Assembly (NCBI RefSeq): GCF_000172555.1 | Contig: NZ_ABOX02000056.1 | Location: 1-41,883 of the forward strand | DNA from: Pedosphaera parvula Ellin514 | GTDB taxonomy: Bacteria; Verrucomicrobiota; Verrucomicrobiia; Limisphaerales; Pedosphaeraceae | Direction of reading: 5' to 3' | Length of the DNA: 41,883 nt | Part shown: positions 4,255-29,868 of the stretch, piece after piece | How the letters are laid out: every line of letters begins with the position of its first letter | Numbering within the stretch: the stretch's first letter is position 1 | Notes under the pieces: model-generated | The model's input: only the letters and a program-made list of their open reading frames with translations | What the model was told of the DNA's origin: nothing | The model's database searches: none | Translations under genes and position numbers: made by a program

Positions 4255-4310
4255 AGCGGAACTGTTTGACAGAATTGCAGGTTCGAGCATTCTTTGAATA
4301 CGGATTGCCA

Positions 4311-4730
4311 ATGACACTGAACGGACAAAAGCAGCTTCGCCCCAGTCTCCGCATTCTCGCGGCGGCGTGCCTGGTTGGCTGGTTGGTGGCGATGGGTGTT
4401 TGCTCGGCGCATTGTTCACTCGGTTTTCTCACGACAAAGTCTCCAGGCAAACGTCCATGCTGCCAACATGAAGGCGGCAAGCAGGAGTCCGGCAACAGTT
4501 CCTGCCTGATCAAGAAGTCAGCATTGACCACGGTGACCGCTCACTTGCAGTTTAAACCGGAACTGCGTCCCCTCCACGTTCCAATCACCAGCGAACCGGT
4601 TCAGGAAGCAGTCCTGACCCAGACACTGATTTCTCCATTTCGCCAAGGGCTGCCGACCGACCGGCCAGCCACGCCTGAGGTGTATCTGGGTGCGGCCACT
4701 TTCAGTCTTGCTCCCCCTTTCCGTAGCTAA
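4311..4730 (+). CDS. Small exported Cys-rich protein of the copper operon
   Basis: A 139-residue protein of unrecognised family. Residues about 14-32 (ILAAACLVGWLVAMG) form a hydrophobic export or anchor segment after a basic start. Cysteines and histidines cluster right after it (CSAHC, then CCQHEGG), a pattern that could bind a soft metal outside the membrane. The C-terminal half is Pro-rich and featureless. It starts 56 bases after the ATPase stop on the same strand, so a role in copper handling is inferred from position and composition only. A TTG codon at 4266 in the same frame would add 15 residues; the ATG at 4311 places the hydrophobic segment nearer the N terminus and is preferred. 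Confidence 0.6.
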   Translation: MTLNGQKQLRPSLRILAAACLVGWLVAMGVCSAHCSLGFLTTKSPGKRPCCQHEGGKQESGNSSCLIKKSALTTVTAHLQFKPELRPLHVPITSEPVQEAVLTQTLISPFRQGLPTDRPATPEVYLGAATFSLAPPFRS

Positions 4731-4876
4731 TCAACTGCCTGTTTGATGGCTTAGGTTTTTCTTTGGTACCTGTTCAGGGCGAACTCTCACCATCGGATGG
4801 AATGCTGCTTGCGCTTACGTAATTGCGCTCATGAGGGCATAGCGGAATATCATGTAACTTTTGGAGTACTCAGAAA

Positions 4877-5113
4877 ATGAAATCAGTTCAAATAATCTCC
4901 TTGTTGGGCGCTGCCGGACTGCTTGCCAGTTGCGCTTTTCATACGACGCCGCTACCCGCAAATCATCCGGCGGACCCGAATGCCGCGGAATCGGTAATGC
5001 CTGCCGCAATGCCAATACTGACGGGCGAGGAACAAACGAATTCAATGCCGGTAGGAAAGGATACGATGCCGGACGAACATCAGCATGTGCATGGGAAGGG
5101 CTCAGCGAAATGA
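4877..5113 (+). CDS. Small Met/His-rich lipoprotein of the copper operon
   Basis: A 78-residue protein beginning MKSVQIISLLGAAGLLASC, a type II signal peptide with lipobox LASC. The mature part is short, Pro-rich, with spaced methionines (VMPAAMPI, TNSMPVG, DTMPDEH) and ends in DEHQHVHGKG. Met and His residues in a disordered exported protein are typical of periplasmic copper-binding proteins. GGAG lies 11 bases before the ATG. Its stop overlaps the next start (ATGA at 5110), so it is translationally coupled to the outer-membrane efflux gene. No named family was recognised; function is inferred from composition and operon. Confidence 0.75.
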   Translation: MKSVQIISLLGAAGLLASCAFHTTPLPANHPADPNAAESVMPAAMPILTGEEQTNSMPVGKDTMPDEHQHVHGKGSAK

Positions 5114-6537: not shown

Positions 6538-6546
6538 ATTTGTTTT

Positions 6547-9430: not shown

Positions 9431-11770
9431 TTACTGCGGGCTGATCGGCATGGTGCTTTGGATTGGGGTTTCGCCGCGCAACATTTTGCCGGCTTCGTTG
9501 GCCAGCTTGAGATACCAATCGCTGGGGAGATTGGTTCCGTCAATGTTCAACGGCACGAAGGTGCCCTGAGCAGGCAACTGGGCGGGAGTTGGTGCGATTT
9601 TGAACATGGCGGTGCCTTCGTCCACTTCGTCAAACATCGCACCGTAGATCATCGTGCAGCCGGAGCGAACGGCGTTGTAAGCCTGCCGCCAGTAGAACGT
9701 GCCGCCGTTGCGCGGAATCTGGTTGAAAGGGCCACTGTTTAAATTGGTCCAGGAGAAGCCGGGGAAAATCACGGGCATGTATTCGCGGCCAGCACTGGTG
9801 GCAGCGGCCAGATCGGGCACAATTTGGTTCAGGCGAAAATTGTCCGCGCCCGAGTTGTCGCCATAACGTCCGACGGACCATGGGCTGATGATGTCGAAGG
9901 AGCGAAACACGGGCGACCACGCGGCATTGGTCTGAGTATCATTGTTGAGCGTTCGCCAATAGGTGGGCAATCCGCCCATGACCGTGCAGCCAGCGGATTT
10001 GAAAAAGTTGATGGCTTGCTGGCCCTGTTGCGGCGTGTCGTCACGACCGGAAAAACCGAATCCCCAAATGGCGATTACGGGCTTGCCGTTGTGCTTGAGA
10101 TAAAACGGGCTGTCGGTGATATGCAGGTTATTGACCAGATAAGTCCAGTCATTAGTCAACTGGCTGACGAGCGTATTGGTGGGCTGCCCCGAAATGTCAT
10201 ACATGATGGCAAAGACGCGTCCGTGGGCTTCAGCGCCGGCGCGGACATTGGCCGTCACCTGATTGCGCAAGGCAAAGAACGCGGGATCGGAAAGTTCCCC
10301 GGTGAAACGTTGGAGAAAAACACCGTCGAGATGATTGTCCTGCATCCATTTGAAATGCCGCATCACGGTTTTCTGATTGAAGGCGGAATAAAGTTTTGCG
10401 GGCGAACCGTTGGAATAGGTCAGGCTCGTGGCGAAGAGCTCGTCCGGGTCCAGTTCGGAAGTATCGGGCCACAGGTCGAAGGTGGCATTGGTCGCGGCGG
10501 GGTTGTTGTTGCGAAACCAATGGACCCAGCGATTGGGGGCCGAGCCATCGTTGGGACAGGCGAACCAGCCTTGATAACCCATGAGCAGTTTGTGGTACAT
10601 GGTGGTGGGGTCCACTTCAGAAACGAGTTGGAAGAATTGCCGGGTGTTGTTTGCCGGCAGGATCCATGTGTTCGGATTATTGGTGACCACGGTGGCATTG
10701 GTCACGTTCCGCCAAAGGATAGGCGTGGAAAGGTTGGAAGAGGCCTGGACGATCATGGGCGCGGCATTGGACGGCCAGGAGAGCAACACGTTGGTGCCTG
10801 CCGGGCTAATGCTCAACGAGAATGAGGCAGACGTGGAAACTGAAGAGGAAACGGAAACGGGAGCAGAGAGCGTGGTTGCGCCGGAGTTGTCGGTGGCAAG
10901 AACGGTCAGTACACAAGTGCCGGAAACAGGATTGCTCCACGTGACACTCCAAGGGTTGCTGCTGCGCTCGCCGATTTTGGTGGGGCCGACGAAGAATTGA
11001 ACATTGGTGATCGTGCCGTCCAAATCCGTGGCGCTGGCAGTAATGGTGAGGGTGGGATTTTGATTGTTGAAATAAAGCAACGCACCATTGGTGGGGCTGG
11101 TAATGGTAACGAGGGGACGGAGCGTGGCGGTGGAGTTGCTGGCCTGGGGCGCGATGAAATCTGTGGCTCTGGTAATGGCGAGGTTATCCCATTGTGCAGC
11201 GACGGGGAAATATCCCGGCGCGGTTCCTGTGCCGACCAGGCCGTCGTAAAATGCGCGTACCACAATGTTTGTGCCGGTGGTCGACGTGTTGAAGCTGTTG
11301 TAAACGAAGTAACCCTTGTCCGCCTCGGAATCGGAGTAGGAGAGAATGACCTGCGGTTCACTGGGCGCGTCGTTGAAGTCAATGACGGTATTTACATGGT
11401 TGGCTGCGTTGCCCAGATTCCATAAATACGCGCTGAAGACGTAGGCCGTGGCGGGTTCCAGGGTGACCAACTGATTGTAGCCGCTGACAGGAGCGCCGCC
11501 ATCCACCTGTGCCTTGGCCACGACGTTGCCGTTGACGGGCACAGTGTTTGATCCGGCGGTGGCAAAAATATCGCCGCTCCGACTCCAGCCGATTGGCGAG
11601 GGATAATTCGTGTTCACCAGCGGGCCCTGGAACTGAAAGTCGCCGTTGGAGATTAACTGCACACGTTCCGTTCCCGGCTTGATAGCGGAGATTTTTAGCC
11701 GGGTTTGAGCGGGGGCAGAAAAACAGATTCCGAACATCAGCCCCGTTAAAAGCACCAGATTAGATTTCAT
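9431..11770 (-). CDS. Secreted GH71/GH99-like glycoside hydrolase
   Basis: A 779-residue exported enzyme. A signal peptide (to about residue 21, ending SAPAQ) is followed by a carbohydrate-binding-like beta region (about 35-205), a bacterial Ig-like domain (about 219-310; VTITSPTNGALL) and a short repeat module (about 318-386). The C-terminal catalytic part from MYHKLLMGYQGWF (391) to about 765 carries landmarks of the GH71/GH99-like clan (YQGWF, HWF, the GVFLQRF and KPVIAIWGFGFSGR strands, and MFDEVDEG near the end). These families act on alpha-mannans or alpha-glucans; the true substrate cannot be read from sequence. The start is the ATG at 11770; a GTG two codons upstream is possible. Confidence 0.82.
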   Translation of the reverse strand: MKSNLVLLTGLMFGICFSAPAQTRLKISAIKPGTERVQLISNGDFQFQGPLVNTNYPSPIGWSRSGDIFATAGSNTVPVNGNVVAKAQVDGGAPVSGYNQLVTLEPATAYVFSAYLWNLGNAANHVNTVIDFNDAPSEPQVILSYSDSEADKGYFVYNSFNTSTTGTNIVVRAFYDGLVGTGTAPGYFPVAAQWDNLAITRATDFIAPQASNSTATLRPLVTITSPTNGALLYFNNQNPTLTITASATDLDGTITNVQFFVGPTKIGERSSNPWSVTWSNPVSGTCVLTVLATDNSGATTLSAPVSVSSSVSTSASFSLSISPAGTNVLLSWPSNAAPMIVQASSNLSTPILWRNVTNATVVTNNPNTWILPANNTRQFFQLVSEVDPTTMYHKLLMGYQGWFACPNDGSAPNRWVHWFRNNNPAATNATFDLWPDTSELDPDELFATSLTYSNGSPAKLYSAFNQKTVMRHFKWMQDNHLDGVFLQRFTGELSDPAFFALRNQVTANVRAGAEAHGRVFAIMYDISGQPTNTLVSQLTNDWTYLVNNLHITDSPFYLKHNGKPVIAIWGFGFSGRDDTPQQGQQAINFFKSAGCTVMGGLPTYWRTLNNDTQTNAAWSPVFRSFDIISPWSVGRYGDNSGADNFRLNQIVPDLAAATSAGREYMPVIFPGFSWTNLNSGPFNQIPRNGGTFYWRQAYNAVRSGCTMIYGAMFDEVDEGTAMFKIAPTPAQLPAQGTFVPLNIDGTNLPSDWYLKLANEAGKMLRGETPIQSTMPISPQ

Positions 11771-11905
11771 TGCCACAAGATTCCAGCCGTTGATTTTTGA
11801 TCAATAAGGCATTTGGGAAATAACTATTCTGACGAACAACCCTCCCGGGGTCGATACTGAATTGCCTCCCCACTTTCGGGGATGGCACGCGGCAAGGCAA
11901 GATGA

Positions 11906-12079: not shown

Positions 12080-12259
12080 TTATTTGCCGATGCTGCGCAT
12101 GCGGGGGAACATAGGAAATAACCTCGCCACTGTCACGGAGAACCATATTGATACTGTCTCCAAGGGTGTTGAGTGGGTATGCACTAAGGCGACGACCACC
12201 CAGACGTCGTTGGTGTGCTGTTGGATCCGGCCTATGTCTTTGTCAGGCGGTGTCATCAT
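12080..12259 (-). CDS. Possible 59-residue protein coupled to the serine hydrolase
   Basis: A short ORF beginning MMTPPDKDIGRIQQHTND; its ATG overlaps the TGA stop of the serine hydrolase gene (ATGA at 12259-12256). Its own stop abuts the start of the tiny lipoprotein ORF. Residues about 19-28 are hydrophobic (VWVVVALV) and the end is basic (PRMRSIGK). No family recognised. The close packing on both sides supports translation, but the same frame is open by chance for a long way upstream inside the hydrolase gene, so open frame alone is weak evidence. Confidence 0.35.
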   Translation of the reverse strand: MMTPPDKDIGRIQQHTNDVWVVVALVHTHSTPLETVSIWFSVTVARLFPMFPRMRSIGK

Positions 12260-13371
12260 GGCACGGGAACAGTGGCGAAGGTTGCGGTGAGGGTGGCGAG
12301 AGTGGCGAGGTTGGTTTTGTCGAAGGGGGTGGAGGTGCAGTTGGCGGTGAGGGCGAGGACGAGGTGGGTGTCGGGAAATAGTAGCAACACGGAGGTGCCG
12401 CCAATGGAGCCGCCAGTGTGCATGAAGATGGGATGGCCTTGTTTGTCTTTCATAAGATACCAGCCGATGCCGTAGCCGGTCGGTTTGCCATCGGTGGTTT
12501 TTTGAGAGGTGAACATGGTGTCGAGTGTTTGGGCTTTGAAGAATCCGGGGTGGAGGTGCATGGAGCCGAAGCGGACGAGGTCTTCGGGGGTGGAAAGGAA
12601 TCCACCGGCAGCCCATTTGTAACTGTTGTCGATAGTGGGCGAGAGTTTGAAGCCGCCGTCGCTGTTGGTGTCGTAGAATTGAGTGCGTTGGGGGATGTCG
12701 CGGTTGGCGTAGTCGGGCATGGTGTTTGTCATTTCGAGGGGAGTGAAAACGGCCTTTTCCATGTAGGTAAGGAAATCCTTTTTAGCGGCGGATTCCATGA
12801 TCCAACTGATTAGACTCCAGCCGTGGCTGGAGTAGGAAAATTTTTCGCCGGGTTTGGAGAGGAGGGGATCGTCCTCGAAGAGTTTGACGCCGTCGCGGAC
12901 GGTGGCGAAGTGTTGGTTGATGAAGAGCTCTTTTCCCTGACTGCCGCGGGAGATGCCGGCGAGGTGTCCGGCCAGCTGACGGGTGGTGATGCATTGGCCT
13001 TTGTCGGGAAAGTCGTGGACATATTGATGGATGTCGGTGTCAAGGTCGAGCTGGCCGTGTTCGACGAGGAGCATGAGTCCGGCAGCGGTGAGCGGTTTGG
13101 AGATGCTGCCAATGCGAAAGAGGGTTTGGGGTGTGACCGGCTTTTTGGTTTCAAGGTCGGCATAGCCAAAGCCTTCGGACCAGAGGATTTTGCCGTCGCG
13201 ACCGATCGCGATGGAGAGGCCGGGGACTTTGGGAGCGATTCTTTCGCGGATTTGGGTGCGGGTGTCCTTGATGGCGTCGTCGAGGGATGCGGCGAGCGCG
13301 GAGGAAGCGAGGAGCAGGATTAGACAGATCAGGTGTTGCAGGTGGAACGGGCGCGGAGTGGGGCGGAACAT
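12256..13371 (-). CDS. Serine hydrolase of the beta-lactamase/class C (LACTB, esterase) family
   Basis: A 371-residue exported enzyme. A signal peptide lies at about residues 10-28 (LICLILLLASSALAA). The active-site set of the penicillin-recognising fold is present: S89-I-S-K92 (nucleophile and general base), Y180-S-S182 in place of YxN, and H318-T-G320 in place of KTG. YSS plus HTG is usual for esterase/peptidase-type members such as LACTB and EstB rather than true beta-lactamases, so D-amino-acid peptide or ester hydrolysis in the periplasm is the likely role. The ATG at 13371 is preferred over the in-frame start at 13491 because it puts the signal peptide near the N terminus and leaves the upstream repeat outside the gene. 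Confidence 0.85.
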   Translation of the reverse strand: MFRPTPRPFHLQHLICLILLLASSALAASLDDAIKDTRTQIRERIAPKVPGLSIAIGRDGKILWSEGFGYADLETKKPVTPQTLFRIGSISKPLTAAGLMLLVEHGQLDLDTDIHQYVHDFPDKGQCITTRQLAGHLAGISRGSQGKELFINQHFATVRDGVKLFEDDPLLSKPGEKFSYSSHGWSLISWIMESAAKKDFLTYMEKAVFTPLEMTNTMPDYANRDIPQRTQFYDTNSDGGFKLSPTIDNSYKWAAGGFLSTPEDLVRFGSMHLHPGFFKAQTLDTMFTSQKTTDGKPTGYGIGWYLMKDKQGHPIFMHTGGSIGGTSVLLLFPDTHLVLALTANCTSTPFDKTNLATLATLTATFATVPVP

Positions 13372-14160
13372 GGGGATAGGGAAGAGGGAAAATGGAGGAC
13401 AGGCAATGGAAAATTTAGTTAAACCGCAGATGGACGCGAATGAACGCGGATGGGGAATGGAAATGACCGATGGCAAATGTTCAATGCTCAAAGAATGATC
13501 AATTTTTCAAGGTCTTGTGAGGCGTGGTGTTCCCGCAGGCGGTTCGTATTTGGCAGTGATCGCGCGATTGCTATCGTGAGATCTCTTGGTGGGGAGGATC
13601 AGACGAATCGGCACACAGTCCATGCAATCGTTCACTTGTATAGACAATACTGAGGAGACACGCGGAATGGTTTGTTCCGCTTTTGAAGATCAGGTTTTGG
13701 TCTGTGATTGATGCACTGGATAGGTAATTCGCCATTTTGGATGTCCGGACTTAGCGAGTAACTAGTTTGAAGGCGTTCATCTAAACCCTGGACTTGGGAA
13801 ATACTAAGTAGGTGGCAAGATGTTCGATCACATTTCCGGAATCGCCGAGTCAAAGAAACCCTTTATTCTCACGGTTTTCGTCGCTCGAAGTGCATGATTT
13901 GTGACCGAATTTTTTGCCGACTACTTAAGTCCCGCTCCCTTTGCCTCTAATAAGTCAGACACGAGGCTTCCAATTTACTGTACATTTTAGTCTTGCTTTA
14001 TCTTCGCGAACTGACTTATACAACTTACGTTCCCTTAAAAATGTCACGGCGCGATGCCTTACCGTTTTTGCGTCGGGTAATCCAGGAGTCGACGTGTTGC
14101 CTTTTACTGAAAGCCATTGGAAGCCCGAGTAAATCAAACCAAGTCTCAGCATAATCTCGT
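13372..14160. other. Long non-coding stretch
   Basis: The first part (to about 13535) holds a repeat described separately. The rest is less GC-rich than the flanking genes, with stop codons in all frames at short intervals and no domain-like peptide. ORFs such as 13941-14132 have no support. It probably contains the promoter of the large gene at 14161, but no convincing -35/-10 pair was found. Confidence 0.5.
13420..13535 (+). repeat. Interspersed repeat, copy 1 (second copy at 23738-23853)
   Basis: Begins with ACCGCAGATGGACGCGAATG and ends with GGTCTTGTGAGGCGTGGTG followed by TTCCCG. The second copy has the same start, middle (AATGCTCAA...AATGATCAAT) and end with scattered changes. It encodes nothing and sits between genes in both places. 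Confidence 0.65.
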
Positions 14161-17100
14161 ATGAACTCTAAAAACAACTTTACCCTTCCGCCCAATGGTC
14201 TGAAATCCATTGGCGGCAGGATGTTCCTCAGCGCCGTCGCTGCCATGTCGCTTGCGGGTGCGGCTTTAGGATCTCCAATCGGAATGAATTTCGTGCGTGG
14301 TCCCGGTGGTGATGTCGCCGGCGTTGCCAACGCTACTGCGAACTCATTGGCTCCGACCGACACGGCCGGGGCGCCTGGTTTCACTCAGGCTAATTGGAAC
14401 AACCTCGGCTTCGTGGGAACGAACATCAATGTCCTGGACAGTTCGGGAGTGCCGAGTGGAGTGGTTGTCAGTTGGGTCTCCGCCAATATGTGGAGCCAGT
14501 CCGGTGGGGGAAACCCGGGCACCCAGGGAGGGCCCGATGCCAACCTGATGAATGGCTACCTGGATTCCAACGCCGGGGCCAACACCACCATGCAGGCCAA
14601 CATGTTCAACACCGCTGCCAACAACAACCGCAACTGGCCATTGGTCTACTTTACCGGTTTGAGCGCCTGGATGGCGGCGCAGGGTGTGACGGCTTACGAT
14701 CTGGTTATTTATGCCGACGGTGACGACTCCGGGAATGCACGCACAGGGGAATATTGGACCATCGATGCCAGTGGTTCGCCCACGGCCTTGACCTACGGAG
14801 GCGACCAGGTAAGCCATGTGTTTATCTGCGACCGGGCCAACTTCACCACCACTGGTGCGTACGCCCAGGTTCCGCTGTTTGTTCAGAGCGGCGGGGGCGC
14901 TCAATTTGGAAATTTCCCGGGGAACTATGCCGTTTTCACGAGTCTAACGAATGACACTTTCATGTTGCGGGACGAAGAGTTCAACACCCGTAGCGTCATC
15001 AATGCCATTCAAATCATTCCCCGCGCCACGGCTGGGCCTGCGACCATTGCTCCGCTGCCCGACGCGCCGACCCTCGCCCATGGAACGGTGCAGCTTCGCG
15101 GGGTGGTAGCCGGTCGCCTGCCGTTTAGTTATCAATGGAAGAAGAATGGCGTCAATCTCGCCAACGTCGGCAACATTTCCGGCGCCAACACTGCAACCCT
15201 GACCATTTCCAATGTTACGGCCGCCGATGTTGCCGGTTACACGCTGGTGGTCACCAACCCCGGTGGCGTCGCCACGAGCAGTGTGTCAGCGTTGACAATT
15301 GTGAATCCGACCGCGGGCAGTTACGCCGAAAAGATTGCCACCAACAATCCCTACGCCTATTGGAGGTTCAATGAGGCCAATGATCCCTCCACAAATTACG
15401 CTCCGGCCTATGACATTGCGGGCGGTTTCACTGGCATTTACGGGAATGCTGCTTTGAATGGATACAACGGAGTCACCGGTCCGCAACCGACGGATTTTCC
15501 CGGATTTGAAAATGGAAACACGGCTCTGCAGTCCGCCAGCACGGCGATGCGCACGTGGGTCACAGCTCCAGCGCTGAATCTCAATACGAATGCAGTGACG
15601 ATGTGCGGATGGATTTATCCGACAGCCGCTCAGGGAGGTGCAACGGCGCTGCTGTTCTGCCGGAACGGCAACGACGTCGCCGGTCTCGGCTATGGCAATA
15701 ACAACAACTTGGGATATACCTGGAACAGCAACAGCGCAGCCACCTATAACTTTGCGTCCGGCCTGGTGCCCTTGACGAACGCCTGGTCATTTGTGGCGCT
15801 GACGGTCAGTCCGACGAATGCCGTCCTCTACCTTTACAACACCAATGGTCAACTCTCGGTAACCAATGCCATCAACCATACCAATCAAGCGTTCAGCGGC
15901 CTCACCTACATTGGATGTGATCCCAGTTCTGCCGCCACGCCGCAAGGCCGTTCTTTTACCGGTATGATTGATGAAATGGCGGTCTTCAACCGCACGCTGC
16001 CGCAGACTGAAATCTATAATCTCTACAAAAAGGGACTGGGCCTCGCGGCCATTGCGCCGGTGATCCCAATTCAACCGCAGTCGTTGGCGCTATTTGAGGG
16101 GCGAACTGCCAAGTTCAATGTCACTGCTTCGGGTGATGCACCGCTCTCTTTTCACTGGCGGAAGAACGGCGTGAACTTGTCCAACGGTGGCAATATTTCC
16201 GGCGCGACCACGCCGTCCCTGACCATCAGCAATATCACCATCGCCAACGATAGCGCGAGTTACGACCTTGTGGTGGGTAACATCGCTGGTTCACTCAACA
16301 GCAGCGTGGTCACCTTGACGGTCGTGGCTTCCAACAGCGCACCCACCGCTTATGAAGCCAAACTGCGGACCGCGAACCCCATCTCCTATTGGCGCTTAAA
16401 TGAAGCCAATGGCAGCCCTTACTCCTACGATTATTGGGGCGGCATCATCGCCACCAACGAAAATGTCACCCTCGGCGTATCCGGGCCGCTGCCGCCTGAT
16501 TATAAAGGTTTCGAAGCTGGCAACACCGCAGCACAGTATGACGGCTTAAGCGCGGCCACCGACAGCAGTGCCGTCGGCCTGCTGAACAACCGCTCCCAAT
16601 TCTCGGTCGTTGGGTGGTTCAACACCGCGGGACCCATTGGACTGCGCGTTGGTCTGTTTGGGCAGAATGATGTGGTCGAATTCGGTTTTCATGGTCAAGA
16701 CCCAGACAGTCCGACAGGCCAGGGCATTCTTGGCATGTGGACACCGGGCGGAGCGGCCTTCCTGTCCCAGACCAATGTGATACCGGGTGTATGGTATCTG
16801 ATCGCTGGTGTGGGGAGTGGCACGAACGTCAGCGTCATTCTGCTCTCCACGAATGGTGGCGGCGGATTCCAGGTGGTGCAAGCCTCCACCAGTGGCACTA
16901 CCACGAATTATGGCAGTTCGGCTGATTCATTCCGTATCGGTGGTGGCGGCATCCTGGATACTCCCGGTGTCAACGGCAATTTCTTCACTGGCATCATTGA
17001 CGAAGTGGCGGTGTTTGACCGTGCCCTGTCAGTAGGTGAACTCTCCGACCTGTTCGGCGCTGCGTTTACTGGTGGTGATCTGCCGCCTGGGATCTCCTCG

Positions 17101-18258
17101 CAGACTGGATCGCTAACCTTGTATGCCGGCCGGACCGCCACATTCAGCGTGAATGCGGTTGGTACTTCGCTCCAATATCATTGGCGCAAAAACGGAGTGC
17201 CGTTGGCTGACAGCGGCAATCTCTCCGGCTCTTTGACCGGGACCCTGACCATAACAAATGTGTCGGCTGCGAACATTGCCTCGTACGATGTGGTGATCAC
17301 AAACAGTGTCGGCAGCATCACCAGCAGCGTGGTCACATTGGGAGTCATTACTCCGGCAGCAGGTGGTTACGAAGCAGCCGTGATTGCTGCCAATCCGCTC
17401 GCTTACTATCGGTTGAACGAAACCAACGATCCATCTTCAGGCACCGTGGTCGGCCACGATTATTGGGGCGGGCACAACGGAGTATACGGAGTTGGCGCAC
17501 TGAATGGTTTCAATGGCATCCTGGGTCCGGTGCCGCCGATCTTCACCTTTGAGACCAATAACACTGGCATAGCTGTCTCTGCGAATACCGTCAGTTCGCA
17601 CGTGACGGCTCCATTTGGAAGTCTAAGCACGAATACCGTAACGATGACCATGTGGATTCAGCCGACGGGAACCTTCGATGTCTTTGCAGGGCTCCTGGTA
17701 AACCGCAATAGCGGCATAGGCGGCGGGTTTGGGTATACCGGCGGTCAACTTGGTTATACCTGGAACAACGACAGCGGGGCCACCTGGGGTTTCAGATCTG
17801 GATTGGTGCCGCCATTGAACCAGTGGTCCTTTGTGGCCCTGGTTGTTGAACCGACGCAGGCCACGTTGTACATGATCAATCCGGATGGTGTGCAATCTGC
17901 CACCAATGTATTGGCACATACCAGTGACGTGTTTGGTAATAATTGGCGGATAGGGACTGATGACCTGAATAATGACAACAGCGGCGCCCGTGATTTCACT
18001 GGCCTGATCGATGAAGTGGCGGTATTCAACTACGCCATGACGCCGGCACAAATCAAAGGTCTTTATAGCGCTGGTGGTCCGCCTTCGGTGACCTTGAACA
18101 TCCAGTCCTCCGGGGCAAACGTGGTCCTGACCTGGGCACAAGGGACGCTCCTGCAGGCCACCAGTGTGGCCGGACCATGGACGACCAATAACGCCACCTC
18201 TCCTTACACGACCTCGCCCGCCGGAGCGCAAAAGTTTTACCGGGTGATCGTGAAGTAG
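14161..18258 (+). CDS. Large secreted protein with three alternating Ig-like and LamG modules
   Basis: A 1365-residue exported protein. A signal peptide covers about residues 20-38. Residues 39-300 form a head region of unknown fold. Then three Ig-like domains (about 308-382, 630-722, 974-1064), each with the core WKKNG/WRKNGV...GNISGA...LTISNV...YxLVVxN, alternate with three LamG/concanavalin-like domains (about 389-627, 729-967, 1069-1302), each opening with NPxxYWRxNE and closing with GxIDEVAVFxxAL. A C-terminal module of about 57 residues (TLLQATSVAGPW...FYRVIV) is of a kind shared by many verrucomicrobial surface proteins. LamG domains bind glycans; binding or sorting of extracellular polysaccharide is inferred. 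No catalytic motif was seen. Confidence 0.85.
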   Translation: MNSKNNFTLPPNGLKSIGGRMFLSAVAAMSLAGAALGSPIGMNFVRGPGGDVAGVANATANSLAPTDTAGAPGFTQANWNNLGFVGTNINVLDSSGVPSGVVVSWVSANMWSQSGGGNPGTQGGPDANLMNGYLDSNAGANTTMQANMFNTAANNNRNWPLVYFTGLSAWMAAQGVTAYDLVIYADGDDSGNARTGEYWTIDASGSPTALTYGGDQVSHVFICDRANFTTTGAYAQVPLFVQSGGGAQFGNFPGNYAVFTSLTNDTFMLRDEEFNTRSVINAIQIIPRATAGPATIAPLPDAPTLAHGTVQLRGVVAGRLPFSYQWKKNGVNLANVGNISGANTATLTISNVTAADVAGYTLVVTNPGGVATSSVSALTIVNPTAGSYAEKIATNNPYAYWRFNEANDPSTNYAPAYDIAGGFTGIYGNAALNGYNGVTGPQPTDFPGFENGNTALQSASTAMRTWVTAPALNLNTNAVTMCGWIYPTAAQGGATALLFCRNGNDVAGLGYGNNNNLGYTWNSNSAATYNFASGLVPLTNAWSFVALTVSPTNAVLYLYNTNGQLSVTNAINHTNQAFSGLTYIGCDPSSAATPQGRSFTGMIDEMAVFNRTLPQTEIYNLYKKGLGLAAIAPVIPIQPQSLALFEGRTAKFNVTASGDAPLSFHWRKNGVNLSNGGNISGATTPSLTISNITIANDSASYDLVVGNIAGSLNSSVVTLTVVASNSAPTAYEAKLRTANPISYWRLNEANGSPYSYDYWGGIIATNENVTLGVSGPLPPDYKGFEAGNTAAQYDGLSAATDSSAVGLLNNRSQFSVVGWFNTAGPIGLRVGLFGQNDVVEFGFHGQDPDSPTGQGILGMWTPGGAAFLSQTNVIPGVWYLIAGVGSGTNVSVILLSTNGGGGFQVVQASTSGTTTNYGSSADSFRIGGGGILDTPGVNGNFFTGIIDEVAVFDRALSVGELSDLFGAAFTGGDLPPGISSQTGSLTLYAGRTATFSVNAVGTSLQYHWRKNGVPLADSGNLSGSLTGTLTITNVSAANIASYDVVITNSVGSITSSVVTLGVITPAAGGYEAAVIAANPLAYYRLNETNDPSSGTVVGHDYWGGHNGVYGVGALNGFNGILGPVPPIFTFETNNTGIAVSANTVSSHVTAPFGSLSTNTVTMTMWIQPTGTFDVFAGLLVNRNSGIGGGFGYTGGQLGYTWNNDSGATWGFRSGLVPPLNQWSFVALVVEPTQATLYMINPDGVQSATNVLAHTSDVFGNNWRIGTDDLNNDNSGARDFTGLIDEVAVFNYAMTPAQIKGLYSAGGPPSVTLNIQSSGANVVLTWAQGTLLQATSVAGPWTTNNATSPYTTSPAGAQKFYRVIVK

Positions 18259-18373: not shown

Positions 18374-21300
18374 GTGCGTAAATCAGCAATAAGTTCCCCC
18401 GCGCAGCCTGCTGGTTGCCGGGATCGTCGGTACCTTCGCCCCCGTTCCGTTTGCCGCCTGGGAAATCTTTTCACCATCGCGCTCGCATTGATCTTCTGCG
18501 CCGAAATCCGATCCACACTGGCCGATAACCTTTTGACCGGGACCATCATTGGCACCAGCGGTTCCTGGAACAATAGCGGCAACACCAAGGAAAAGGCGAT
18601 GGACGGCAGTCTGACCACGTTCTTTGATGCGCCCACCGGCAATGGGGATTGGGTGGGACTGGATCTGGGCACGAACGTCAGCAAGGTTATTTCGCAAGTG
18701 CGGTATTGCCCTCGCAGCAGCAATGAAGCGAGAATGGTGGGTGGCAAATTCCAGGGAGCCAACGCGGCGGACTTTAGTGGCGCGGTGGATTTGTACACGA
18801 TCACCGCGCAGCCAGTGACCGGCACGTTGACGACGCAATCAATAAGCGTGACCAACGCTTTCCGCTATGTGCGTTATCTTTCGCCGGACGGTGGTTTTGG
18901 CAATGTGGCCGAAGTCCAGTTTTACGAAGCTGGTGTGGTCCTGCCGCCGCCGACATTCGGCGTGTACCGGGAGTTGTGGACGAACTTGAACTCAGGTGGA
19001 GGTGCTACACTGGACATGCTGACCAATACGGCCGTGAACCCGAATTGGCCAAGCAATCCAGCCACGGTCTATACAAAGATTTATACCAACTTTGAAACTG
19101 AGGCGGGCACCGGGATGAACAATTACGGGCAGCGGTTGCGCGCGTTTGTTGTGCCACCAAACAATGGGGTTTACACCTTTTGGATTGCCAGCGATGACGC
19201 ATCGAAACTTTCGTTGAGCAGCAATGAGAGTCCAGGCAACTGCGTGGGAGTGGCCTGGGTCAATGCGTGGACAGATGCCCGGGAGTGGACGAAAGAGGCA
19301 AACCAGAAGTCGGGAGCCATTTATCTGGAAGGCGGGAAGCGTTATTACCTCGAGGCCTTGATGGTGCAGGGAGGCGGAGGGGACAATCTCTCGGTGCGAT
19401 GGCAGTTGCCCGATGGGAGCATCGAGGAACCGCTCGGTGGGACGAGGTTGATTCCATATACCGGGTTGAGCAATACGCCAGGAATTTATGTGCAACCAAC
19501 GAATTTAACCGTGACGGAACATGGGAGCGCAGCCTTTTCGGTGCTGACGACCAACCAGTCGGAGATGACGTATCGATGGCGGGTCAATGGGGTGAACCTT
19601 AACACGGCTCAGGCCAGTCAATCGGTTTATACCGTCAGTAACGCGAGCGTGACACTCAACGGACAAAGCTATAGCTGCGTTCTCTCCAACAGTTCCGGCG
19701 CGATCACCAGTGCTCCGGCAGTCCTGACGATCATCGGAGATACAACGCCGCCGACGCTCGTTTCAGCAAAAAATGGTTCGTTGACGAATATCATTATCCG
19801 CTATTCGGAACCGGTTGAGCCGACATCGGCGACGAATCGGTTGAATTATGCGATTAGTCCGAGCGCGACGGTTTCGTCGGTTTTGATGTTCGATTCGCAG
19901 AGTGTGCTGCTGCTGGTTTCGTCGCTTGCGCCGAACACAGGCTATACGGTCACGGTAAATGGGGTGCGCGACCTGGCCTCGACACCAAACATGATTGCGG
20001 CAAATTCGAAGATCAGTTTTACGGCGAGTGCTTACGGTCTTGGTCTGCGTCCGGCGTTCGGGCCTTTTCTAAACAATCAAATGCCGGAAACAGCGCCGGT
20101 CATTTCCGGAAACTGGTCGGCAGTCGTGGCTTTTACGAACCTTACTTTTACGAATGCGCTTGGTTTGGCTTCGGTTCCGGGTACGGATAAATTGGTGGTA
20201 TGGGAACGGGAGGGGCGGGTCTATTCATTCACCAACGATCCGGGTGCGAGTTCCAAGACGCTGGTGTTGGACTTGAGCAATCAATGCCAGGGGTGGGATG
20301 ACTCGGGACTTTTGAACCTGGTGTTTCATCCGGGATTTGTGACGAACCATTTTGTCTTCGTTTATTACACGTGGGTGACACCGGGAACAGTGGTGGGGAG
20401 TCCAACGGTGAGGCCGCCGACATTTGTGACGGGGGCGTACCATGACCGGCTTTCGCGATTTACGTTGGATGCGAATGGGGTGGCGATTCCCGGTTCGGAA
20501 CTGGTGTTGGTAGATCAGGCTGGGGATTGCGTGTGGCATAACGGGAGTGGAATGTTCTTTCATCCGACGAATGGTTTTCTCTATGTCACGGACGGGGATG
20601 ATGAGAATACGTCGAACACTCAGATTATTGATCGAGGCCTTTTCTCCGGCGTGTGGCGACTGGACGTGGATATGCGCGGAGGCGCGATCAGCCATCCGAT
20701 TCCGCGGCAGCCTGTGAACGGAGTCACGGCGAATTATTATATTCCCAACGACAATCCATTTGTGGGTGTGCCCAATGCGCTGGAGGAATTTTACGCCATC
20801 GGGCTGCGGAGTCCGCATCGGATGACATGTGATCCGGTGACGGGAAGGATTTTTATTGGCGATGTGGGCAATGCTTCGTGGGAGGAGTTGGATGTGATTG
20901 AGCCCAATGATCCGCCGGGATTGAATTTTCAATGGAGTGTCATTGAAGGGTTGAATGGAGATTTGACGCCGCCGTACATCGGTGTGAACAGGCGTCCGAT
21001 CCTCAACTACAGCCACAGCGAAGGCCAGGCGATCATTGGTGGTTATGTCTATCGCGGGAGTCAGTTTGCAGCGGATTTGGGCGGGAAATATATTTTTGGC
21101 GACAACGTGCAAAAAAAGATTTGGGCGTTGGATGAATCGACAACGCCCGCAGGCAAGATTCTGCTTTGCACGATGCCGACGGGGGCGGGGCCGAATTCGG
21201 GGAGTGATTATACCGGATTGTCCTCGTTTGGCTTGGATAAGAATAACGAGTTGTATCTTTGTCAGATGAGCAGTGTGGGAGGTCATATTTTCAAGCTGGC

Positions 21301-23692
21301 ACGATCCGGACCGCCTCCCGTCAATCGCCCGATACCGGCGACGCTCTCGGCAACCGGGGCGTTCAAGGATTTGAGCACGCTGGCGGTGAGTGATGGTTTG
21401 GTTCCTTATACGGTGAATTCGCCGCTTTGGTCGGATGGGGCGGCGAAGCAGCGCTGGATTGGTTTGCCGACAAATAGTTTTGTTCATTTTGCGCCGACGG
21501 GTGAGTGGGCGTTTCCCAATGGGACGGTGTTGGTGAAGCATTTTGATCTGCCGGTGGATGATACGAATCCGAATGTTTTGAGACGGCTTGAGACGCGGTT
21601 GCTGGTGCGGGATACGAATGGAGTGGTGTATGGAGTGACGTATAAGTGGCGGACGGATTATTCGGACGCGGACATAGTCACGAATGGGATCAGTGAAAAT
21701 ATTGTTATCAACACGGCTTCGGGCACGCGCACGCAGACGTGGTATTATCCGGGGCCGTTGGATTGTTTGCGGTGTCACACGGCGGCGGCGGGTTATGTTT
21801 TGGGGGTGAAGACGAGGCAATTGAACGGCAATCTCAGTTACCCGGTTTCAGGCGTGACGGACAATCAATTGCGTGCGTGGAATCATGCGGAGATGTTTGA
21901 TACGAATATCGTTGAAGCGAATATCAGCGGGTATTCGAAACTGGTGAAGGTCAGTGATACGTCGGCGTCGTTGGAATTGAGGGTGCGGTCGTATTTGGAT
22001 GCGAACTGCTCGCAGTGTCATCGGCCGGGTGGGGCACCGGCGTTTTGGGATGCGCGGTTTGATATTCCGCTGACGAATCAGAATATTATTAATGGTGTTG
22101 TGGGTGATACGTTAGGAATTGCCGGGGCGAAGGTGGTGGTGCCGCAGGATCTCACGAAGTCGGTGATGTATTTGCGGGTGAACAGCCTGGGCACTTACCA
22201 GATGCCGCCGCTGGCGCGGAATACGATTGATTCATCGGCGGTTACTGCGCTGGCGGAGTGGATAACGACGTTGCCGTCGCCGCAGATTTCTGCGATTGCG
22301 GATGTGTTGATGGATGCGAATAGTTCGACGGGGCCGATTGGTTTCACGGTGAGCGATGGGGCGATGTCGCCTGACCAGTTGATGGTGAGCGCGAGTTCGT
22401 CGAATCCATCGTTGATTCCGAGTAATCACATTGTCATTCAAGGGAGCGGGAATAATCGCACCATCACCGTCACTCCCGCAGCCAACCAAACGGGTTCGGC
22501 AATTATCTCCATTGTGGTGAATGATGGAACGGTGGCGACGACGGGGAGTTTTACGGTGACGGTGAGGGGAATGCTGGCCGCTTACTATAAGTTTGAGGGG
22601 AATGCACAGGACAGCAGCGGACAGGGGAACGATGGGGTTTTGAATGGCGGGGTCACGTTTGTGCCCGGCAAGGTTGGCGCGCAGGCGGTTCAATTGGATG
22701 GGAGCACGGGGTATGTGCAGATTCCGGTTTCGGCCATCGATGATTTTACCATTTCGCTTTGGTTGAAGACCACGGATACGGGCGGAACAGGTCAATGGTG
22801 GGCGGGCAAAGGATTGGTGGATGGCGAGGTGAGCGGTGGATCCGCAGACTTTGGCACCACGCTCGTGGGTAATCAATTCGCGCTGGGTGTGGGCGGTTCC
22901 AATGGGAATCCTGATGTGACGATTCTTTCGAGCACGGCGGTCAATGACGGTGTGTGGCATCATTTGCTGGCGACAAGAAATTCCACGACCGGCCAGATGG
23001 CGGTTTACGTGGATGGTGGCCTGGAATCGACCGGCACTGGGTCGGTTGGTCCGCGAGTTGGTCCTCCGGCACTTCGCATCGGCGGTATCCAAACTGGAAC
23101 TGCCACGGGATTCCTGGCTGGCACGGTCGATGATGTCCGGATTTACAATTATGTGCTCAGCAGTAGTCAGATTTCCTCGCTGGCCACGCGTGCGCCGGTG
23201 CTGGCACCGATTCCGAATTTCAGCATGGTGGCGGGTGCGACGCTCAGGTTGACGAACAGTGCGGTGGATGCGGCTATTCCGCCGGAGACGTTTGCGTTCA
23301 GCCTGTTGAGTTCGCCTGCGGGTGCGAATTTGAATGGGACGAATGGGGTGCTGACGTGGCGTCCGACGATGGCGCAGGCGAATACGAGTAATCAATTCGC
23401 GATCAAGGTGAGTGATAGTGGTTCGCCGAGTACGGGGGCGACGCAGAGTTTTTGGGTGTCGGTGGTTCAACCTGTCAGGCCGAACCTGGGTGGGTTGAGT
23501 TCTGATCATGGGATGATTCGGTTTTCGATTTCCGGGGATTTGGGGCCGGATTACACGGTGCTGGGTTCGACGAACCTGCTTGATTGGGTTCCGATTGTGA
23601 ATACGAATCCGCCGATCATGCCGTTCTTGTTTGTGGAGCCGAATAATACAAATTATGGCCGGAGGTTTTATCGGGTGCTGCTTGGGCCGTAG
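18374..23692 (+). CDS. Giant exported fusion: discoidin-like, PA14, sugar-dehydrogenase propeller, dihaem cytochrome c, LamG
   Basis: A 1772-residue protein. After a long signal sequence (hydrophobic part about 32-50) come a discoidin/F5/8-like domain (52-187), a PA14 domain (195-365), an Ig-like domain (372-455), a Big-5-like domain (455-552) and a glucose/sorbosone dehydrogenase-type beta-propeller (about 590-975; motifs WEREGRVYSF, GLRSPHRM, IFIGDVGNASWEE). The next region (about 984-1306) resembles the HNE_0200 family of secreted cytochromes and has two haem-binding CxxCH motifs, CLRCH (1131) and CSQCH (1212), with YQMPPLA as a possible Met ligand near 1284. A LamG domain (about 1397-1600) and a C-terminal FYRVLLG module follow. 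A plausible role is carbohydrate oxidation with electrons passed to the attached haems. The start is GTG at 18374; no better start exists before the signal sequence. Confidence 0.85.
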   Translation: MRKSAISSPAQPAGCRDRRYLRPRSVCRLGNLFTIALALIFCAEIRSTLADNLLTGTIIGTSGSWNNSGNTKEKAMDGSLTTFFDAPTGNGDWVGLDLGTNVSKVISQVRYCPRSSNEARMVGGKFQGANAADFSGAVDLYTITAQPVTGTLTTQSISVTNAFRYVRYLSPDGGFGNVAEVQFYEAGVVLPPPTFGVYRELWTNLNSGGGATLDMLTNTAVNPNWPSNPATVYTKIYTNFETEAGTGMNNYGQRLRAFVVPPNNGVYTFWIASDDASKLSLSSNESPGNCVGVAWVNAWTDAREWTKEANQKSGAIYLEGGKRYYLEALMVQGGGGDNLSVRWQLPDGSIEEPLGGTRLIPYTGLSNTPGIYVQPTNLTVTEHGSAAFSVLTTNQSEMTYRWRVNGVNLNTAQASQSVYTVSNASVTLNGQSYSCVLSNSSGAITSAPAVLTIIGDTTPPTLVSAKNGSLTNIIIRYSEPVEPTSATNRLNYAISPSATVSSVLMFDSQSVLLLVSSLAPNTGYTVTVNGVRDLASTPNMIAANSKISFTASAYGLGLRPAFGPFLNNQMPETAPVISGNWSAVVAFTNLTFTNALGLASVPGTDKLVVWEREGRVYSFTNDPGASSKTLVLDLSNQCQGWDDSGLLNLVFHPGFVTNHFVFVYYTWVTPGTVVGSPTVRPPTFVTGAYHDRLSRFTLDANGVAIPGSELVLVDQAGDCVWHNGSGMFFHPTNGFLYVTDGDDENTSNTQIIDRGLFSGVWRLDVDMRGGAISHPIPRQPVNGVTANYYIPNDNPFVGVPNALEEFYAIGLRSPHRMTCDPVTGRIFIGDVGNASWEELDVIEPNDPPGLNFQWSVIEGLNGDLTPPYIGVNRRPILNYSHSEGQAIIGGYVYRGSQFAADLGGKYIFGDNVQKKIWALDESTTPAGKILLCTMPTGAGPNSGSDYTGLSSFGLDKNNELYLCQMSSVGGHIFKLARSGPPPVNRPIPATLSATGAFKDLSTLAVSDGLVPYTVNSPLWSDGAAKQRWIGLPTNSFVHFAPTGEWAFPNGTVLVKHFDLPVDDTNPNVLRRLETRLLVRDTNGVVYGVTYKWRTDYSDADIVTNGISENIVINTASGTRTQTWYYPGPLDCLRCHTAAAGYVLGVKTRQLNGNLSYPVSGVTDNQLRAWNHAEMFDTNIVEANISGYSKLVKVSDTSASLELRVRSYLDANCSQCHRPGGAPAFWDARFDIPLTNQNIINGVVGDTLGIAGAKVVVPQDLTKSVMYLRVNSLGTYQMPPLARNTIDSSAVTALAEWITTLPSPQISAIADVLMDANSSTGPIGFTVSDGAMSPDQLMVSASSSNPSLIPSNHIVIQGSGNNRTITVTPAANQTGSAIISIVVNDGTVATTGSFTVTVRGMLAAYYKFEGNAQDSSGQGNDGVLNGGVTFVPGKVGAQAVQLDGSTGYVQIPVSAIDDFTISLWLKTTDTGGTGQWWAGKGLVDGEVSGGSADFGTTLVGNQFALGVGGSNGNPDVTILSSTAVNDGVWHHLLATRNSTTGQMAVYVDGGLESTGTGSVGPRVGPPALRIGGIQTGTATGFLAGTVDDVRIYNYVLSSSQISSLATRAPVLAPIPNFSMVAGATLRLTNSAVDAAIPPETFAFSLLSSPAGANLNGTNGVLTWRPTMAQANTSNQFAIKVSDSGSPSTGATQSFWVSVVQPVRPNLGGLSSDHGMIRFSISGDLGPDYTVLGSTNLLDWVPIVNTNPPIMPFLFVEPNNTNYGRRFYRVLLGP

Positions 23693-24074: not shown

Positions 24075-25091
24075 TTAGGGCTTGGCGGGGGGGACGGCTT
24101 CGAAGGTGATTTTTACGGGTTTGATGTGGTCTTGGGTGTCGAATTCCATGTGGTCGATGCAGGTGACGCGGTGGTTGCCGTCGGTTTCGCCCAAGGGGCG
24201 GCGGTGGTAGACGATGTACCACTCGTCCTTGCCGGGGAGTTGGATGACGGAATGATGGCCGGCGCCGGTGGCGACTTTGGGATCTTGCTGGAGGATTTTG
24301 CCGATGCGCTTGAAGGGGCCGAGCGGGGAATCGGCCATGGCGTAGGCGACGGAATAATTCGGCCCGGTCCAGCCGCCTTCGGACCACATGAAATAATACT
24401 TCGCGCCGCGGCGGAACATGACGGAGCCTTCGACGTAACCTTCGGGTGTGATTTCCTTGTAGGTGGTGCCGTCGGCAAAGGGTTCGAGGCCGCGAAAGTC
24501 ATTTTTGAGGCGGCAGATGTTGCAATGACGCCAGCCGCCGTAGATGAGGTAGTATTGGCCGTCCTGATCTTTGAAGACGAATTGATCGATGGGTTGCGCG
24601 CCGTTGTGGAACTGGCCAATCAGCGGTTTGCCGAGATAGTCATTGAAGGGGCCGGCGGGTTGATCGGCCACGGCGATGCCGATGCCGCCGAGTTGGTGGT
24701 CGTTCTGGATGTCGTTCGCGCCGAAGAAGAGGAAGTAGCGTCCGTTGTTTTCAGCGACGGCGGGTGCCCACATGGCGCGACGCGCCCAGGTGACGCTGTT
24801 GGTATCGAGGACGCGGGTGTGTTTGGTCCAATGCACGAGGTCGGGCGAGGAGAAGGCATCGAGAAATACCTGTTCGTCGTATTTGGCGGAGTAGGTGGGG
24901 TAGATCCAGAATTCCTTGCCGAATATTTTGGCCTCAGGATCGGCATACCAGCCGGGGAAAATGGGGTTGCCGGAGTGTTCGGGCGTGGCGGTTTGATCGG
25001 CGGCGTGGAGGGGGCAGAGGGCGGAGAGGCTGAGGGCGACAAGCAGGGTGAACAAAAGCTTTCGGGGTTGCGCGAACGAATGGCGTTTCAT
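24075..25091 (-). CDS. Glycoside hydrolase family 43 (arabinosidase/xylosidase-like)
   Basis: A 338-residue secreted enzyme with a signal peptide ending near residue 31 (ALSLSALCPLHAADQ). The five-bladed propeller of GH43 shows its three catalytic acids: D51 in WYADPEAKIF (general base), D169 in IDQFVF (pKa modulator) and E221 in EGSVMFRRG (general acid). The length is that of a single catalytic domain without a binding module. Expected to cleave arabinose- or xylose-containing plant polysaccharides outside the cell. Its own 5' end (signal peptide and leader DNA) is copied twice more at about 30.05 and 33.64 kb as dead fragments. Confidence 0.9.
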   Translation of the reverse strand: MKRHSFAQPRKLLFTLLVALSLSALCPLHAADQTATPEHSGNPIFPGWYADPEAKIFGKEFWIYPTYSAKYDEQVFLDAFSSPDLVHWTKHTRVLDTNSVTWARRAMWAPAVAENNGRYFLFFGANDIQNDHQLGGIGIAVADQPAGPFNDYLGKPLIGQFHNGAQPIDQFVFKDQDGQYYLIYGGWRHCNICRLKNDFRGLEPFADGTTYKEITPEGYVEGSVMFRRGAKYYFMWSEGGWTGPNYSVAYAMADSPLGPFKRIGKILQQDPKVATGAGHHSVIQLPGKDEWYIVYHRRPLGETDGNHRVTCIDHMEFDTQDHIKPVKITFEAVPPAKP

Positions 25092-28357: not shown

Positions 28358-28440
28358 GTTGGCCACAGTTACTGACACCTAATCTGATGGTTTTCTCCTT
28401 TTTCTGTCCGATTTGAGCGGTGGCGGCTAACATAGAGACA

Positions 28441-29868
28441 GTGAACGATCAGACAGACTCACAACTACTGCATGCCTATGCGGAAAACCGTTCCGAAGCG
28501 GCCTTTACCGAATTAGTGCGCCGCCACGTGGATTTCGTCTATTCCGCCGCACGACGAATGGTGCATGACCCGCATCTCGCCGAAGACGTGACTCAGGGTG
28601 TGTTTGTCGCGGTTGCCAAAAACGCACGCCAACTCACCAATCGCGCCGTGGTTTCCAGCTGGCTGCATCGCACAGCACAGAACATCGCCGCTCAAACCGT
28701 CCGCACCATTGAGCGCCGTCGGGCCCGCGAACAGGAGGCCGTCGCCATGAATGAATTGCTCGCCCACGAACCCGATGCCGTCTGGGAAAATGTCGCTCCA
28801 CATCTCGATAAAGCGCTCGGCGAATTGAGCGAACCGGATCGGGACGCGCTGCTACTTCGCTACTTTGAACGCAAATCCGCTCGTGAGATGGCCCAAGCCC
28901 TCGGCGTTAGCGACGAAGCGGCGCAAAAGCGGGTGAATCGTGCGGTAGAGAGGCTGCGCGAACTTTTCTCGAAACGAAATGTGACGATTGGTGCGAGTGG
29001 CCTGGTAGTTTTGATTTCGGCAAATGCCGTTCAAGCCGCGCCTGCAGGTTTGGCCACCACGATTCCCACCTCTGTCGCAGCCGCAACAATAACCATCGCA
29101 ACCCATACAACTATGCAGTGGATCAACCTTAAATCGGCCGCCATGATTCTTGCCACCGCCCTCGCCGCGAGCACAGTCACACACCTCGTGGAACAGCAGG
29201 GAGCAAATCGTCTGCGAAGTGAGAACCAAAACCTGGCAGATACAAATCGGTTACTGAGCAAGGAGCGTGACGCAGCTTTGTCCGCATCCACGGCTAACAA
29301 CGACGAACTCGGACGCTTGCGAAAGGAAAAAGGCGAATTACTTCGACTACGGAGCGAGGTGGGGATGCTCCGCAAGCAAGCATCCGAACTCGCCAACTTC
29401 AAGGAGGAAACCCTGCGGCTTCGCGCCGTCTCATCAAACCCGCAAAACAAGCAGGTGATTCAAGCTCAGCCTGCGGGACAAACAAATTTCCCCAAGGAAT
29501 CCTGGGCGTTCGCTGGTTACGCAACACCGGAAGCGGCGCTACAATCCTGGGTGTGGGCGATGAGCAAGGGGGACAAACAGGCCATGCTAGGCAGTTTGGT
29601 TCCTGAGGCTCGAAAGGAGTGGGAAAAGATATTCGGGCAAACATCGGACAGTGAATTTGCAGCCGACGTGGCAAAAGGATTTAAAAACATTGTTGGCTAC
29701 AAGATTGTTGAGCTGCAGGCTAGTTCTGATTCAGAGGTCGAGCTGAGAATGGAAATGTCCACGACAAACGAACAGAATAACAAGGATAAGATGGGGAAGG
29801 CGGAGAAGATGACGCTCCAAAAGGTTGAAAACGAATGGAAGTTGGCCGGCCCATCTAAGAATCAATAA
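28441..29868 (+). CDS. ECF sigma factor fused to a membrane segment and C-terminal domain
   Basis: A 475-residue protein. Region 2 of an ECF sigma-70 factor covers about residues 5-85 (ELVRRHVDFVYSAARRMV, HLAEDVTQGVF, VSSWLHRTA) and region 4 about 120-175 (LLRYFERKSAREMAQALGVS then AAQKRVNRAVERL). Instead of ending there, the chain runs on through a membrane-like helix (AMILATALAASTVTHLV, about 234-250), a coiled coil rich in L-R-E (about 255-330) and a C-terminal domain (about 345-475; SWAFAGYATPEAALQSWVWA). This fits ECF factors with built-in C-terminal control domains. No separate anti-sigma gene is next to it. Start: GTG at 28441, giving the usual (M)NDQTDSQLL start; GTG at 28420 is an alternative. 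Confidence 0.85.
   Translation: MNDQTDSQLLHAYAENRSEAAFTELVRRHVDFVYSAARRMVHDPHLAEDVTQGVFVAVAKNARQLTNRAVVSSWLHRTAQNIAAQTVRTIERRRAREQEAVAMNELLAHEPDAVWENVAPHLDKALGELSEPDRDALLLRYFERKSAREMAQALGVSDEAAQKRVNRAVERLRELFSKRNVTIGASGLVVLISANAVQAAPAGLATTIPTSVAAATITIATHTTMQWINLKSAAMILATALAASTVTHLVEQQGANRLRSENQNLADTNRLLSKERDAALSASTANNDELGRLRKEKGELLRLRSEVGMLRKQASELANFKEETLRLRAVSSNPQNKQVIQAQPAGQTNFPKESWAFAGYATPEAALQSWVWAMSKGDKQAMLGSLVPEARKEWEKIFGQTSDSEFAADVAKGFKNIVGYKIVELQASSDSEVELRMEMSTTNEQNNKDKMGKAEKMTLQKVENEWKLAGPSKNQ

Follow-up and report, generated by a model that had tools for sequence, protein, structure and literature searches.

Work on P460 haems has mainly treated them as an uncommon chemistry found in ammonia and methane oxidisers. 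A 2025 review describes the P460 fold as unique to the P460 and c'-beta proteins and makes no mention of fusions, diheme proteins or Verrucomicrobia; it also gives P460 haem potentials of -300 to -424 mV and reports that NsP460 without its distal carboxylate is inactive and that NeCP-beta, a c'-beta protein whose distal residue is Arg, has peroxidase-like activity (PMC11928373). In McP460 of Methylococcus, Lys78 is the residue cross-linked to the haem (PMC6427953). For a second family, SO2930 (TIGR03806, HNE_0200), SO_2930 appears among outer-membrane or extracellular c-type cytochromes, without a function in the part of the paper that names it (PMC4837345), and no paper on HNE_0200 was found in the open-access literature searched. 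That literature likewise yielded no link between SO2930/HNE_0200 and P460 and no description of a fusion of this dihaem region to a propeller.

Two described proteins resemble the one reported here in overall plan. The pyranose dehydrogenase of Coprinopsis cinerea (CcPDH; AA8-AA12-CBM1) is likewise secreted and joins a GSDH-fold propeller, a cytochrome and a CBM in one chain, but its cytochrome is b-type and of another fold; its authors described the bacterial relatives as lacking the cytochrome domain (PMC4133262). Cbp2D of Cellvibrio japonicus is likewise bacterial and combines a CBM and a c-type cytochrome tied to polysaccharide use, but it carries a YceI-like quinone-binding domain and different cytochrome domains and is a proposed LPMO partner (PMC8981238). 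A role as LPMO partner was rejected for the protein studied here, no match to PF03067 (AA10) having been found in the genome.

The window, a 41,883-nucleotide stretch of DNA from Pedosphaera parvula Ellin514, encodes this protein of 1,772 amino acids in a single frame (18374..23692, +; all coordinates within the gene are on the + strand), with an A/G-rich stretch directly upstream of the GTG start. The N-terminus (18374..18523) contains, by eye, a signal-peptide-like hydrophobic stretch at residues ~30-50, and the protein is apparently secreted. The next module had been called discoidin-like in the preliminary description. A module is indeed present, matched by F5/8 type C at residues 64-180 below the Pfam cut-off, but it is better named CBM62 (residues 52-185, 18527..18928): residues 52-185 matched CtCBM62 at 3.3e-50 in a search of solved-structure sequences, and the domain alone matched it (2yb7, phmmer) at 1.7e-52 over 132 residues. 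It is the only CBM62 match in the genome. CBM62 modules bind L-arabinopyranose. They have also been linked to D-galactose-bearing xylan side chains (PMC5063996). Pfam also recovered the PA14 (residues 249-353, 19118..19432, 3.5e-9) and LamG-like modules (Laminin_G_3, residues 1442-1601, 22697..23176, 3.3e-22) named earlier, and placed Ig-like (Ig_3, below cut-off) and Big_5 (residues 456-550) spacer domains at residues 369-550 (19478..20023). The central part consists of a six-bladed GSDH-family propeller of HHIP type (residues ~575-982, 20096..21319) and a dihaem region. The earlier proposal that a single chain combines a GSDH-type propeller and two c-type haem sites with modules for glycan binding was upheld.

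The chain ends in a module (23471..23689) common to other proteins of the genome, with 25 matches, itself included. The proteins that share this module of ~60 residues, which often has a final RFYR-like motif, are large; it stands at the very C-terminus in L050, L052 and L053, and may serve for sorting or anchoring. The same-strand gene upstream (14161-18258) encodes 1,365 amino acids, including three stretches each of LamG and Ig type, and its C-terminus looks similar by eye.

The dihaem region had been described as HNE_0200-like with two CxxCH sites, in agreement with a full-length match to TIGR03806 (residues 988-1300, model positions 2-314 of 314), which stayed below the curated cut-off (211.1 vs 313.3 bits). 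Residue counts were made on 117 non-redundant family sequences, the window's own included, after removal of near-identical rows (98%). Both motifs were kept throughout, in 115/115 aligned sequences for haem 1 (CLRCH, residues 1131-1135, 21764..21778) and in 114/114 for haem 2 (CSQCH, residues 1212-1216, 22007..22021), and thus do not occur by chance.

The haem-1 half of the SO2930/HNE_0200 region is homologous to cytochromes P460/c'-beta (residues 984-1150, 21323..21823). A separate model of residues 984-1303 (pLDDT 95.5, pTM 0.92, 88 sequences) was compared with solved structures by VIA-align, and the six best rows were all P460/c'-beta proteins (Z 5.2-6.3, rmsd 3.3-3.9, 119-125 aligned), a Z range that is modest by itself (the tool warns below 8). 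This superfamily accounted for 10 of the 50 rows listed, and the absence of other folds from the VIA-align list is no evidence. With Foldseek, nothing matched the same model at E <= 0.001, a P460 chain ranking second (E 0.098). Sequence comparison supports this modest structural signal. Using hhalign, 50 haem-1 halves aligned with 11 PF16694 proteins from the phylum at a probability of 92 (E 6.7e-7), and at 95.7 (E 1e-8, score 56.5) when two Methylococcus structures, McP460 and McCP-beta, were added. With the CxxCH and everything beyond it removed, the score was still 38.7 (probability 86), whereas none of 200 column-shuffled controls scored above 21.7; an earlier CxxCH-free alignment without the two Methylococcus structures had given 31.1 vs a maximum of 20.2 (100 shuffles). 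The haem-2 half, CxxCH included, aligned with the P460 set over 12 columns (score 25.3, probability 21). Other searches weigh against the relationship: PF16694 matched 4 of 50 single members, all below the Pfam cut-off (best E 0.099), and had no match in this genome at E <= 0.01, and when the haem-1-half profile was run against solved-structure sequences, P460 proteins were missing from the matches at E <= 10 (best E 2). The position of the haem motif agrees with the relationship, as CLRCH follows the final main strand in the model and so closes the beta-sheet domain in the same way as the CxxCH of P460/c'-beta proteins.

Individual residues of P460 could be traced through the same alignment. 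P1048, G1050, K1055 (21536..21538) and W1092 aligned in hhalign with Pro71, Gly73, the cross-link residue Lys78 and Trp117 of McP460 (the Trp in the chain numbering used here; the paper prints another number). K1055, E1073, T1074, Y1090 and W1092 were each present in 116/116 aligned sequences (one of the 117 rows was gapped), and also in Pseudoalteromonas and Sandaracinus members. They recur in a Novosphingobium protein scoring above the TIGR03806 cut-off (351.5 bits) and in three proteins for which no propeller was matched. The protein thus shares with P460/c'-beta (PF16694) the beta-sheet domain ending in CxxCH, a P-x-G-x4-K motif with the cross-link lysine position, and a conserved Trp. It differs in its sub-cut-off sequence, in the fused class I-like cytochrome c, in a cross-link that is putative only, and in the distal carboxylate, since Asp102, the proton acceptor of McP460, aligns with R1075 (Arg in 113/116). 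R1027 may correspond to the capping Arg50 of McP460, judged by spacing alone in a region without a confident hhalign alignment; this position is Arg in 115/116. That K1055 is covalently cross-linked to haem 1 is a guess to which we give slightly less than an even chance; the lysine could stay un-cross-linked. Among verrucomicrobial PF16694 proteins, the cross-link position is Arg, Ala, Phe or Leu at L159-L163, and Lys at L164-L168 and L171.

Haem 2 looks like that of an ordinary His/Met class I cytochrome c (residues ~1186-1302, 21929..22279), as delimited by Pfam, TIGR03806 and the model, with Cytochrome_CBB3 matching residues 1209-1297 below the cut-off. Its likely distal ligand is M1277 (22202..22204; 113/113 aligned). 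Among 88 sequences, no invariant Met or His was found beyond M1277 and the CxxCH histidines, as would be expected if haem 2 has His/Met ligation and haem 1 is five-coordinate. Haem 1 is probably five-coordinate with the P460 lysine beside it. Because its domain is P460/c'-beta-like and keeps the cross-link lysine, haem 1 is probably not a simple electron wire, a point absent from the preliminary description, which had the electrons move through the haems. The SO2930 family has the same full-length domain, two CxxCH and a Met after haem 2; the protein here differs from it in scoring below the cut-off and in being fused to a propeller and glycan-binding modules.

The fusion is widespread in Verrucomicrobiota and also occurs in Bacteroidota and Pseudomonadota. 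When 288 genomes of the phylum were searched with residues 575-1310, 68 of them held matches, and propeller and dihaem parts were found in one frame in at least 30 of the 288, with at most three candidates scored per genome. A scan of a GTDB collection returned 136 stretches encoding relatives; in the best 80 of these 136 loci, the dihaem part accompanied the propeller in 84 of 85 propeller-bearing frames, and by record title members were mostly Verrucomicrobiota, with some others labelled Planctomycetota, Saprospiraceae, Cyclobacteriaceae, Maribacter, Bacteroidia, Cellvibrionaceae and Granulosicoccaceae. The architecture is therefore not new, and each of its parts is covered by an existing family model; the P460 relationship together with the conserved lysine does appear to be new.

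The accessory modules vary among relatives. One of them (L078) closely matched the whole architecture, CBM62 included, and two others (L126 and L127) carry CBM62 twice within their C-terminal part. In 34 complete relatives scanned, out of 69 available, DUF1349 was found at E <= 0.001 in 18 and Por_Secre_tail in two. In L054-L057, a DUF1349-like domain, above the Pfam cut-off in L054 only, interrupts the dihaem part immediately ahead of the haem-1 motif, and the same kind of split was observed at several other loci. In a Pseudoalteromonas megaplasmid protein of 2,157 amino acids (L173, 2613-9083), three CBM26 starch-binding modules share the chain with a GSDH propeller and a dihaem part of SO2930 type, along with planctomycete-type (PSD/PSCyt) domains. 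The CBM62, CBM26 and DUF1349 partners speak for a link to glycans, and Por_Secre_tail speaks for secretion. Rows for the minus-strand loci L002, L004 and L006 were left out.

From the sequence we infer secretion, glycan tethering, the haem coordination given above and the following electron flow. In our preferred reading, which we consider about evenly poised, the protein is a secreted enzyme, tethered to plant polysaccharide, with a reactive P460-type haem 1 and a relay haem 2, and with a propeller that either holds a cofactor or serves for docking. CBM62, PA14 and LamG would, by homology, hold it on galactose- or arabinopyranose-bearing glycans; haem 1 in its P460/c'-beta-type domain would be the reactive site, and haem 2, in the class I cytochrome c directly behind, would relay electrons. 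The potentials of P460 haems are too low for electron uptake from PQQ or a typical class I cytochrome, so that a reactive role makes better sense for haem 1, with haem 2 as partner. Dihaem peroxidases show a comparable division of labour between two haems, but the fold here is different. Since Arg replaces the proton-accepting carboxylate of active P460s, peroxide chemistry at haem 1 would be likelier than hydroxylamine oxidation; peroxide as the co-substrate is nevertheless a tentative guess by analogy, and a glycan-tethered pair of P460-type reactive haem and relay haem is the likelier part of the proposal. The propeller would keep the catalytic face of sugar quinoproteins without the known PQQ anchors, and might either bind a cofactor differently and feed electrons to haem 2 or act as a docking module.

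Extending this reading to the whole SO2930/HNE_0200 family, which occurs in several phyla and has been described as dihaem cytochromes, as P460-type enzymes with a lysine-cross-linked haem and a class I cytochrome c that Verrucomicrobiota and Bacteroidota export on polysaccharide-binding scaffolds, is speculative, and we would put it below even. If it holds, P460 haem chemistry would operate outside nitrogen metabolism, in extracellular carbohydrate oxidation. If a common, secreted and polysaccharide-linked family carries a P460 domain with the cross-link lysine conserved, many P460-like enzymes that have so far gone unexplored could be tested at once.

GSDH (PF07995) matched in two stretches, the best at residues 595-753 (73.1 bits vs a cut-off of 25), which supports the GSDH-type propeller named in the preliminary description, here corrected to the HHIP type. 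The model of residues 575-1310 had a mean pLDDT of 89.5 and a pTM of 0.65, so the placement of its domains relative to each other is uncertain. HHIP, an animal hedgehog-binding protein without a cytochrome, was the best sequence match among solved structures, shares the GGxVYRG...GD motif, and also headed the structural comparison (Z 38.9, 27% identity), level with aldose/glucose dehydrogenases of bacteria (Z 38.0-38.2). The PQQ-bound structure 3das scored Z 35.6, and AA12 structures Z 29.3-30.4.

A rather unlikely alternative, which is compatible with the preferred reading, is that the propeller is non-catalytic as in human HHIP and serves for docking, so that the two-haem unit alone is enzymatic. 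The closeness to HHIP is consistent with it, as are L050 and L052, two further proteins of this genome, in which the same dihaem domain follows PA14 and other modules without a GSDH match. However, R812 at the quinone side is invariant (117/117), whereas HHIP has His at the aligned place, and this invariance argues for chemistry in the propeller. The catalytic His (H722) was likewise present in 117/117, and its partner D742 was Asp in 112/117 and Glu in 4 more; G832 and E837 were invariant across the 117 sequences.

The conserved catalytic His, its partner Asp and the Arg also speak for an AA12-like quinohaemoprotein, in which the propeller would use externally scavenged PQQ to oxidise a sugar end or side chain and both haems would only carry the electrons onward. 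The fold is as close to the aldose dehydrogenases (Z 35.6-38.2, one of them PQQ-bound) as to HHIP, and fungal CcPDH binds PQQ despite missing residues of the bacterial site (PMC6881789, PMC4133262). Several findings nevertheless make this alternative unlikely. The Arg-x-Arg that helps to grip the PQQ carboxylates, present in all four enzymes compared (YliI, 7cdy, 2ism and 3a9g), occurred in 0/117 family sequences, a lone Arg standing at one or the other of its two places in 2 and 1 rows. The sGDH positions used for comparison are H144, D163, R228, N229, R406 and G247. The numbering of sGDH Lys377 and Arg408 follows PMC6881789. A Lys at the K377 place was also found in 0/117, which is a weak marker because this place is Lys, Ala, Arg and Arg in the four enzymes; direct alignment with YliI confirmed the absence of both Arg-x-Arg and Lys. 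Moreover, a P460-type haem is low-potential, which would make haem 1 ill suited as acceptor. As to AA12 itself, judged from the description of CcPDH, its PQQ anchors (a His/Trp/Asn loop and an Arg) were not recognisable, and the stretch that may correspond to them reads GDN-like.

The genomes point in the same direction. No pqqC match was found in this genome, and no pqqE over the cut-off, the latter being a weak negative given sub-cut-off pqqE matches in all 14 control genomes. Among the 288 phylum genomes, taken as the identical sample for the fusion and pqqC searches (handles agree where both are given), pqqC exceeded the cut-off in six, which serve as the positive control, the control genomes giving no pqqC match. 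All six lie outside the 30 fusion-bearing genomes counted, among which pqqC over the cut-off was found in none and a weak 55-bit match in one (G166). A conventional PQQ sugar dehydrogenase is thus doubtful, with Arg-x-Arg absent family-wide and no pqqC found, and a simple PQQ dehydrogenase with a haem wire was demoted to a rival on the same grounds. PQQ binding as such is doubtful but may still occur, because fungal AA12 uses a partly different set of residues (PMC6881789). The original proposal that the propeller oxidises a polysaccharide with its own cofactor therefore lacks support in that form. A loss of cofactor ligands was to speak against it, and the ligands turned out to be divided, the Arg-x-Arg for the PQQ carboxylates having gone and the catalytic His, Asp and Arg being kept. 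More generally, a GSDH-type propeller should not always be taken for a PQQ sugar dehydrogenase, as here the Arg-x-Arg is gone and the sampled hosts are without pqqC over the cut-off.

That haem 1 instead oxidises hydroxylamine or binds or scavenges NO, with the glycan modules merely positioning the protein on cell surfaces or particles, would fit the P460/c'-beta homology and the conserved lysine, but is very unlikely given that the carboxylate required by active P460s is replaced by Arg (R1075, 113/116) and that the frequent sugar-binding partners do not suggest nitrification.

The genome has cytochrome c assembly genes, with three PF01578 matches over the cut-off, as the preliminary description suggested checking. 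Of the neighbouring genes that it read as suiting polysaccharide use, GH43 was confirmed (24075-25091, -) and the supposed esterase is a PF00144 beta-lactamase-like protein (12256-13491, -). For the GH71/99-like neighbour (9431-11776, -), Pfam showed only Big_7 (E <= 0.001), and NCBIfam had no match (E <= 0.01). Elsewhere in the window, a heavy-metal P-type ATPase, an outer membrane efflux protein and a multicopper oxidase are clustered at 1711-7956, probably for metal handling. A factor of the Sigma-70 family, comprising regions 2 and 4 and a weakly DUF4878-like C-terminal part, is encoded at 28420-29868, a Fic/DOC family protein at 34761-35951 and an IS110-type transposase at 37597-38889. 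PATR repeats (PF12951) are common in the genome.
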